DNA of 64,000 bases from Halarcobacter sp. (GTDB lineage: Bacteria > Campylobacterota > Campylobacteria > Campylobacterales > Arcobacteraceae), in contig JAQYVX010000006.1 of assembly GCA_030145305.1 (NCBI GenBank), positions 124,001-188,000 on the forward strand, read 5' to 3'. Positions 36,557 through 37,793 of the stretch are shown here, one piece after another; the stretch's first letter is position 1; each line of letters starts with the position of its first letter. The notes beneath the pieces are model-generated. The model saw only the letters and a program-made list of their open reading frames with translations. It was not told where the DNA came from and did not search any database. The position numbers and the translations under genes were made by a program.

Positions 36557-37159
36557 ATGAAAATTTTTCTTTTTCTTTTTTCATTAAGCTTTTTAAATGC
36601 CCAAGAGTGTAGCCCATATTTTAATCCAAAAAAATTTTATGAAACACCTCAAGCACTTAGTGAACTTTTAGATGAGACTTTTCCAAATGGTATTTTCTCA
36701 AATACAATTCTTTTAGATGAGACTTTTAAAGATTCACTTATACTAGAAAATGAAGTTCTAAAAAAAGACTCTTTTGTACAAGAAGGTGATTATATTTATC
36801 CTAATAAAAATGGCCTTTGGAAATATAAAAAAATAAAGACCAAACTTGAAAATAGAATTGATGAAGTAAATATTTCAAAAAGTGAAATTTATAGATTTGC
36901 AGATATTGATATTGCTAATACTATAAATGATGATTATGATAATTTTTGGAATGATTATATAGAGAATGCTTACGAAATGCAATTAACGCCAGAACAAACT
37001 CTTTTTAGATATAATAATGCCTATTTTACAATGTCAGTATTTATTTATGGGGTTAAAGGTGATTCTACACCACTTCAAGGAACAGTTATAAATCTTTGGT
37101 TAAAAGATTATACAAAAGAGGTAAATACTTATATAGAGTGCATAAAAGGAAAAAAATGA
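36557..37159 (+). CDS. Exported protein of unknown function
   Basis: 200 residues from the ATG at 36557, which begins a clear signal peptide (KIFLFLFSLSFLNA, cut before QECSP). A TTG start nine codons upstream is less likely. The mature part is acidic and shows no domain I recognise; WNDYIENAYEMQLTPEQTLFRYN is its most distinctive segment. It has only two cysteines in the mature part, one at each end (QECSP and YIECIKGKK), which could form a disulfide. The stop overlaps the gatC start (ATGA). Confidence 0.75.
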   Translation: MKIFLFLFSLSFLNAQECSPYFNPKKFYETPQALSELLDETFPNGIFSNTILLDETFKDSLILENEVLKKDSFVQEGDYIYPNKNGLWKYKKIKTKLENRIDEVNISKSEIYRFADIDIANTINDDYDNFWNDYIENAYEMQLTPEQTLFRYNNAYFTMSVFIYGVKGDSTPLQGTVINLWLKDYTKEVNTYIECIKGKK

Positions 37160-37446
37160 CAGTTGATGATAAGTTAATAGAAAAATTAGCAAAACTATCT
37201 TCTTTAGAAATTGAAGATTCAAGAAAAGAAAATCTAAAATCTGAACTTGCAGATATTATTAATTTTGTAGAAAATTTAAATGAAATTGATGTATCAAATA
37301 TTGAAGCAACATTTAGTACAGTTGAAGGTGGAACACCTTTAAGAGAAGACGTTGCAAAACAAGATTTAGAATTCTCAAAACATGTTTTAAAACATGCACC
37401 AAAAAGTGAAGATGGGTATTTTGTTGTACCTAAAATTATAGAATAG
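37156..37446 (+). CDS. gatC: Asp-tRNA(Asn)/Glu-tRNA(Gln) amidotransferase subunit C
   Basis: 96 residues from the ATG at 37156, preceded by AAAGGA at 37145-37150; a longer start at 37096 lies inside the previous gene and is rejected. The family pattern is clear: IEKLAKLSSLEIED, ELADIINFVENLNEIDVSNIE and the end VPKIIE. GatC stabilises the GatA-GatB complex that amidates mischarged tRNAs; gatA and gatB are not in the window. Confidence 0.94.
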   Translation: MTVDDKLIEKLAKLSSLEIEDSRKENLKSELADIINFVENLNEIDVSNIEATFSTVEGGTPLREDVAKQDLEFSKHVLKHAPKSEDGYFVVPKIIE

Positions 37447-37454
37447 GAAAGATT

Positions 37455-37793
37455 ATGAAGGTTTACGGAATAAAAACCTGAGACTCTGTTAGAAAAGCCT
37501 TAAGGTTTTTTAAGGATAACAACATAGAAGCAGATTTCTTTGATTTAAAAAAAGAAATTCCAGCTTCAACTTCTATCAAGTCTTGGATTGAAAAAACAGG
37601 AATAGATACAGTATTTAACTCTCGTGGAACAAAATACAGAAGTCTAAAATTAAAAGAATTAAATTTAGATGAAAATGCTAAGTTTGAATGGCTATGTCGT
37701 GAGCCAATGTTACTTAAACGACCTATAGTAGAATATGAAAGCGGCGTTCTAGTTGGTTTCAAAGAAGAAATTTATAAAGAGACTTTTTTATAA
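37455..37793 (+). CDS. ArsC/YffB-family thioredoxin-fold protein with TGA at the catalytic Cys (candidate selenoprotein)
   Basis: 112 residues if the TGA at 37479-37481 is read as selenocysteine. The protein would start MKVYGIKT-U-DSVRKALRFF; the ArsC/YffB family has GIKxCDxxKKA there, so the TGA replaces exactly the catalytic Cys. Downstream the same frame keeps NSRGTKYRSL, EPMLLKRPI and LVGFK, all family landmarks, and ends at TAA 37791-37793. The ATG at 37455 has AGGAAA at 37445-37450 and lies 8 bases after gatC. A SECIS-like hairpin follows the TGA. Under the standard code only an 8-residue peptide would be made. A simple nonsense pseudogene is the main alternative; the otherwise intact frame argues against it. 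Confidence 0.85.
37487..37521 (+). promoter_or_regulatory. Candidate bacterial SECIS element
   Basis: An upper stem CCTTAA (37498-37503) with TTAAGG (37510-37515) closes the loop GGTTTT, and a lower stem TGTTA (37487-37491) with TAACA (37517-37521) is separated by an asymmetric internal loop. The loop starts with two G, 22 bases after the TGA. A G at the first loop positions and a loop about 16-37 bases from the UGA are features of bacterial SECIS models as I recall them; SelB would bind here. Confidence 0.65.

Follow-up and report, generated by a model that had tools for sequence, protein, structure and literature searches.

Selenocysteine (Sec) has already been described in several members of the ArsC family. 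Surveys of marine metagenomes (Sargasso Sea, GOS) describe two such groups, ArsC 1 with a UxxS motif (pfam03960) and ArsC 2 with a UxxC motif (cd03032) (PMC1088965, PMC2398784). ArsC-like and distant ArsC selenoproteins are described for Desulfotalea and Desulfuromonas (PMC1794560), and ArsC_rel_Se_1 (NF041106), an ArsC family (seleno)protein, is given with UxxC in reviews (PMC9312934, PMC13188914). For the Campylobacterota, the families treated by Cravedi et al. (2015) include Fdh, SelD, SelW, thioredoxin, a C. curvus peroxidase and DUF466 (PMC4607533), three selenoprotein families are credited to the Epsilonproteobacteria in a passage that leaves them unnamed (PMC1794560), and in the A. butzleri genome paper selenocysteine is mentioned once, for a formate dehydrogenase. 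One YffB protein is described as binding glutathione near its Cys motif and as missing two of the three ArsC arginines; a role as a glutathione-dependent thiol reductase is suggested for it there, its reaction being unproven (PMC3169414).

In the main text of PMC4607533, an ArsC/YffB member was not found, the word 'arsenate' occurring 0 times and 'Arcobacter' once, and the main text of the deep-Sep paper (PMC12013277) contains none of the terms looked for. In a search covering openly available main texts, no report was found of a YffB-type Sec form, nor of an ArsC-family one in Campylobacterota. ArsC-family selenoproteins as such are known; as far as that search reaches, the new part is the YffB-type form and its occurrence in this phylum. 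With the gene described here, the known selenoproteins would gain a YffB-type enzyme, and the Campylobacterota set its first ArsC-family member within the reach of that search.

The gene is located in a 64,000-nt stretch of Halarcobacter sp. DNA, the whole of which is called the window below; its features are collected in Table 1. Translation with TGA read as U agrees with the original prediction of a single frame from ATG to TAA interrupted at codon 9 only, and returns the predicted flanking residues YGIKT-U-DSVRKA. Judged from the comparative sequence data presented below, the product of the gene is very probably a YffB-type reductase of the ArsC family in selenoprotein form. The selenoprotein interpretation first offered for it is supported by the alternation of TGA and Cys codons among orthologues, by the Sec machinery of the host genome and by a hairpin that tracks the TGA state.

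Table 1. Positions of the features discussed, on the numbering of the window
Feature	Position	Strand	Description	Basis
Upstream neighbour, presumed gatC	37156..37446	+		Name presumed from sequence; homologue upstream in family
YffB/ArsC-related CDS	37455..37793	+	112 residues with UGA = Sec, stop TAA	Translation
Putative Sec codon, TGA in frame at codon 9	37479..37481	+		The family's redox Cys position in orthologues
SECIS-like hairpin (predicted)	37498..37515	+	Arms CCTTAA 37498-37503 / TTAAGG 37510-37515, loop GGTTTT 37504-37509	
Codon 17, AGG (Arg)	37503..37505	+	Its G opens the putative SECIS loop	Codon counts in family

The neighbouring genes are, from their sequences, what we take to be gatC, tgt and a DAHP synthase gene. 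A gatC homologue lies directly upstream of the YffB-type gene in all 93 family genes considered (18/18 with TGA and 75/75 with Cys), and all 93 are therefore treated as one orthologous locus; gatC and the YffB-type gene would presumably be co-transcribed. The host genome also has a Cys paralogue (L191 1019-1372, contig C38), with the motif GIKTCASVKKA and 46% identity, which passes TIGR01617. This paralogue sits away from the gatC locus, and nine of the 16 genomes that make up the genus group gave a second match.

The window protein scored 70.3 bits with Pfam ArsC (cut-off 24) and passed TIGR01617 arsC_related at 91.6 bits against a cut-off of 75.05. It remained below the cut-offs of the ArsC selenoprotein model NF041106 (27.3 against 85 bits) and of the YffB equivalog NF008107 (70.6 against 121), and because of the latter score it is labelled YffB-type and not a YffB equivalog. 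An AlphaFold2 model computed with the UGA as Cys had a pLDDT of 95.8, and its closest structure was YffB 1rw1 (Z 19.0, rmsd 1.3, 111 residues), with Spx and ArsC structures ranked after it; 1rw1 was likewise first in a sequence-only search. The predicted model has a YffB-type fold, that is, a thioredoxin-like domain plus a helical part as in 1rw1. The ArsC/YffB-like family named in the original prediction was thus right in kind, on the strength of TIGR01617 and the nearness of the model to 1rw1, at a score under the YffB equivalog cut-off. The Spx regulator was considered and rejected, as the motif is UxSV in 18/18 TGA genes, with no CXXC, and NF002459 scored 28 against 123. A classical arsenate reductase serving detoxification, in place of a YffB-type thiol reductase, would be in keeping with Pfam ArsC membership and with the matches to E. 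coli ArsC structures (Z about 13.6). We consider it unlikely, since TIGR00014 gave only 41.3 bits against a cut-off of 106.05, the best structure is a YffB, and the locus lies behind gatC; inspection by eye of the ORFs at 30-45 kb revealed no recognisable ars gene.

Among known systems, the same whole-length fold is found in YffB PA3664 of P. aeruginosa (1rw1; 33% identity in the structural alignment) and in B. melitensis YffB (2kok; Z 12.6, 30% identity in the structural alignment). Both YffBs and the window protein have a KRP motif and a single redox residue after beta 1, which is Cys in the YffBs and the proposed Sec here. As described, ArsC 1 and ArsC 2 belong to the same superfamily and share with this locus Sec as the redox residue, proposed in the present case, and a conserved G in the loop of the predicted SECIS, but are set apart by UxxS and UxxC from the UxSV of all 18 TGA genes; likewise, the second Cys of the UxxC motif given for ArsC_rel_Se_1 is missing in the window protein. 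The Desulfotalea and Desulfuromonas forms resemble the present case in being rare Sec members of a mainly Cys family, and are set apart by description as deltaproteobacterial. The set of Cravedi et al. comes from the same phylum and is described with the same short apical-hairpin SECIS and an invariant loop G (PMC4607533).

For codon 9, homologues came from three sources: the host family, with matches in 93 of 104 genomes; relatives, with matches in 49 of 60; and named contigs, of whose 115 loci 80 were retained. Across the 176 homologous rows, in which certain genes are present twice, from two collections, codon 9 was TGT in 116, TGC in 37, TGA in 23 and nothing else, so that the TGA stands at the redox Cys as had been predicted. 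In the 93 family orthologues (one genome per species), codon 9 was TGA in 18 and TGT or TGC in 75, the 18 distinct TGA genes being spread over 8 of the 20 genus groups searched. In the named collection, five of the 80 loci had TGA, all of them genes already in the family count, and 75 had Cys; named records with the TGA form were Arcobacter sp. UBA7394 (L069) and Arcobacter sp. 31_11_sub10_T18 (L063). Phylum-wide, 204 of 397 genomes had a homologue at E 1e-15, and among the matches listed none outside the family had the TGA form.

Past the TGA, dN/dS was about 0.09-0.29 when TGA genes were compared with one another (eight pairs) and 0.07-0.21 when Cys genes were (six pairs), which indicates that this part of the frame is under purifying selection. 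TGA is one base from TGT and TGC, and one Cys relative (G001) does have a premature stop, both of which are in line with a pseudogene or sequencing error, that is, with a nonsense mutation at codon 9 that killed a YffB gene. That explanation is extremely improbable in the face of a same-codon TGA kept across these genus groups in genes that each have one stop in the match, at codon 9, with low dN/dS in all eight pairs and a conserved, covarying hairpin. Sequencing error is very unlikely in itself because the TGA occurs in 18 distinct genes from different species' genomes. Decay, which the original prediction had named as a sign against a selenoprotein, was not seen in the close relatives, where codon 9 is TGA or Cys and the frame is without decay. 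As a separate observation, the Cys orthologue of G001 (L016, L070) loses its last nine residues to an in-frame TAA at codon 104; this genome has selA and selB, and we take the TAA as a truncation and not as recoding.

The Sec machinery for which the original prediction proposed a search was found complete in the host genome. The selA (571.5 bits) and selB (312.1 bits) genes adjoin each other, a tRNA-Sec gene (48.7 bits, anticodon tca) lies beside them, and selD (350.1 bits) has its own in-frame TGA (L199 about 1531-1533). Two fdhA genes, each close to the start of its contig (C3 and C50), are also TGA-interrupted (L202, L203), bringing the further TGA-interrupted Sec genes of the host to three. 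Since selD and both fdhA genes are interrupted in this way, Sec appears to be in use in the host.

Plain read-through, with UGA decoded as another amino acid such as Trp or Cys by near-cognate suppression, would preserve the frame too. It is nevertheless very unlikely, as Cys is the only other residue in the 153 rows without TGA, the host has the whole Sec trait together with other TGA-interrupted known Sec genes, and TGA terminates 5 of the 43 open stretches of at least 600 nt in the window by a mechanical count.

Of the 104 genomes of the family, 70 gave a selB match and likewise 70 a selA match (69 above the cut-off). Both genes were found in 16 of the 18 genomes with the TGA form, and no selA or selB match was obtained in the other two, the incomplete MAGs G032 (74% complete) and G120 (86%). 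Considering only genomes with the gene, the TGA form occurred in 16 of 68 selB-positive versus 2 of 25 selB-negative ones (one-sided p 0.078), an association that is not strong when taken by itself. In one relative, selB has an in-frame TAA (G091:C5:288048-289823) although selA is intact; the YffB-type gene of this genome (L056) is a Cys form.

The hairpin itself and its GGTTTT loop are as originally predicted, but the 22 nt given as its distance from the TGA is the distance to the loop, the arm beginning at 16 nt. It lies shortly past the UGA and a G opens its apical loop, as in bacterial SECIS elements. With a fixed-register definition of six standard pairs and a 6-nt loop with a leading G, this canonical form was present in 17 of 18 TGA genes versus 5 of 75 family Cys orthologues (Fisher p 2.6e-13, related rows not being independent). 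In the 18th TGA gene, L013, residues are changed and the same stem is shifted by 1 nt, with a 5-nt loop. Over 13 distinct rows, two of the six pairs showed two-sided changes, C-G to U-A and A-U to G-C, and the pair changes were synonymous in the listed codons GCC/GCT, TTA/TTG, TTT/TTC and AAG/AAA. The share of paired cells (96.2%) and the covariation score (0.214) were equalled by 0 of 500 shuffles, and both were lower in all six slid-arm versions (highest covariation score 0.154). Five covariation measures were taken, and for two of them the real alignment is unremarkable: its count of pairs with two-sided changes was equalled by 87 of the 500 shuffles, and its count of further pair types by all 500.

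A single copy of the hairpin is weak evidence. The single-sequence fold was not significant (z -0.79; 46 of 200 shuffles equally good), and, with the protein and local codon use given, 9-28% of synonymous recodings form the hairpin in fixed register, the figure under a looser scan being 2-27%; since single hairpins are not rare among such recodings, we relied on the comparison across the family. The fixed-register rate also speaks for a hairpin that is a by-product of the conserved segment A-L-R/S-F-F-K and no SECIS, as do four more Cys genes (L052, L150, L169, L173) that pass the looser scan. We judge a by-product improbable, however, because the canonical form occurs in 0 of 68 Cys orthologues outside genus group g6, two pairs have compensatory synonymous changes, L013 as the sole TGA gene with changed residues keeps the hairpin in its shifted register, and codon 17 is AGN in all but one of the TGA genes (see below).

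Rfam SECIS_1 had no match in the host genome, and likewise none in 14 control genomes, so that it is uninformative here. An RNA model built from the YffB-type TGA genes had no convincing second match in the window, the best remaining one having 17.8 bits (E 0.22), and no match to selD or fdhA. The same model scored the Cys orthologues and paralogues tried at 30-80 bits, since most of it is shared coding sequence. In host fdhA, the most comparable of several possible hairpins has the loop GGUGU 18 nt past the TGA, compared with 22 nt here, and the candidate hairpins of host selD start closer to the TGA, at 11-13 nt.

The preferred reading of the hairpin as a SECIS is also consistent with codon 17, which overlaps its loop. 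This codon was AGN in 17 of 18 TGA genes (AGG or AGT, Arg or Ser) versus 6 of 75 Cys genes; the sole TGA exception, L013, has AAG, and its shifted stem supplies the loop G. Among the Cys genes, AGG was found in five of the seven in g6, and AAA or AAG (Lys) in 64 of the 68 others. This suggests that the RNA signal, through its loop G, shaped the protein at codon 17.

The five Cys genes that form the canonical hairpin all belong to g6 (5/7 there, 0/68 elsewhere), which also has three TGA genes. Among the 78 rows outside the 93, the four with the canonical hairpin (L060, L061, L064, L065) are again g6 genes. Poseidonibacter ostreae SJOD-M-5 and P. lekithochrous A1R12 are included in this group. 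Since a single genus group contains all five and has TGA members as well, the hairpins of these five Cys genes look like SECIS remnants, and remnant SECIS structures are known in Cys homologues of other families (PMC1794560). The simplest reading of these sequences is that Sec was recently replaced by Cys in g6, probably via both TGT and TGC.

A gene tree on 111 columns only, with 96 rows of which 93 are family genes and three belong to other families, was poorly resolved; the fewest Sec/Cys changes numbered four, with 15 open forks, leaving direction and number unsettled. The TGA genes of g11 and g6 (L045 of G075; L047 of G120; L048 of G117) cluster with those of g1, g3 and g18 and not with their own genus. 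Such scattering of the rows of one genus group could reflect recombination, transfer or poor resolution. On balance, we lean towards a single syntenic Arcobacteraceae locus that switches between Sec and Cys, at which Poseidonibacter-group Cys forms keep the SECIS and the loop G rewrote codon 17. If so, it is a natural experiment that bears on the benefit of Sec over Cys in a monothiol YffB enzyme, and also on RNA constraint acting on a protein.

For the Sec form, the following course is proposed. SelA would charge tRNA-Sec(UCA), drawing on selenophosphate supplied by SelD, and SelB would bind the hairpin, whose loop starts GGU, and bring tRNA-Sec to the UGA of codon 9. Sec9 would stand at the start of helix 1 of the thioredoxin-like fold, in the place of the catalytic Cys that related species' orthologues use at the same locus. 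The protein would then be a reductase of the monothiol type that depends on glutathione: its selenolate would attack the substrate, and glutathione would resolve the resulting adduct, the UxSV motif providing no partner residue three positions downstream. A one-selenolate, glutathione-resolved mechanism is favoured because there is no CXXC, the motif being UxSV throughout, and because 10 of the 18 TGA proteins have no Cys anywhere; that glutathione is the partner we hold to be somewhat more likely than not.

Because related species differ between Sec and Cys at one site of a syntenic gene, some having the machinery and others lacking it, both the contribution of Sec to catalysis and the disappearance of SECIS signals are directly testable. 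An orthologue is present in 93 of 104 family genomes, with 18 interrupted by TGA, and these TGA-interrupted members are likely missed or split by standard gene callers. The window illustrates this, as had been anticipated: the mechanical list of ORFs of 60 aa or more is without this gene and reports in its place a 99-aa antisense ORF at 37463-37762 (-). This antisense frame spans the hidden gene and might get annotated instead.
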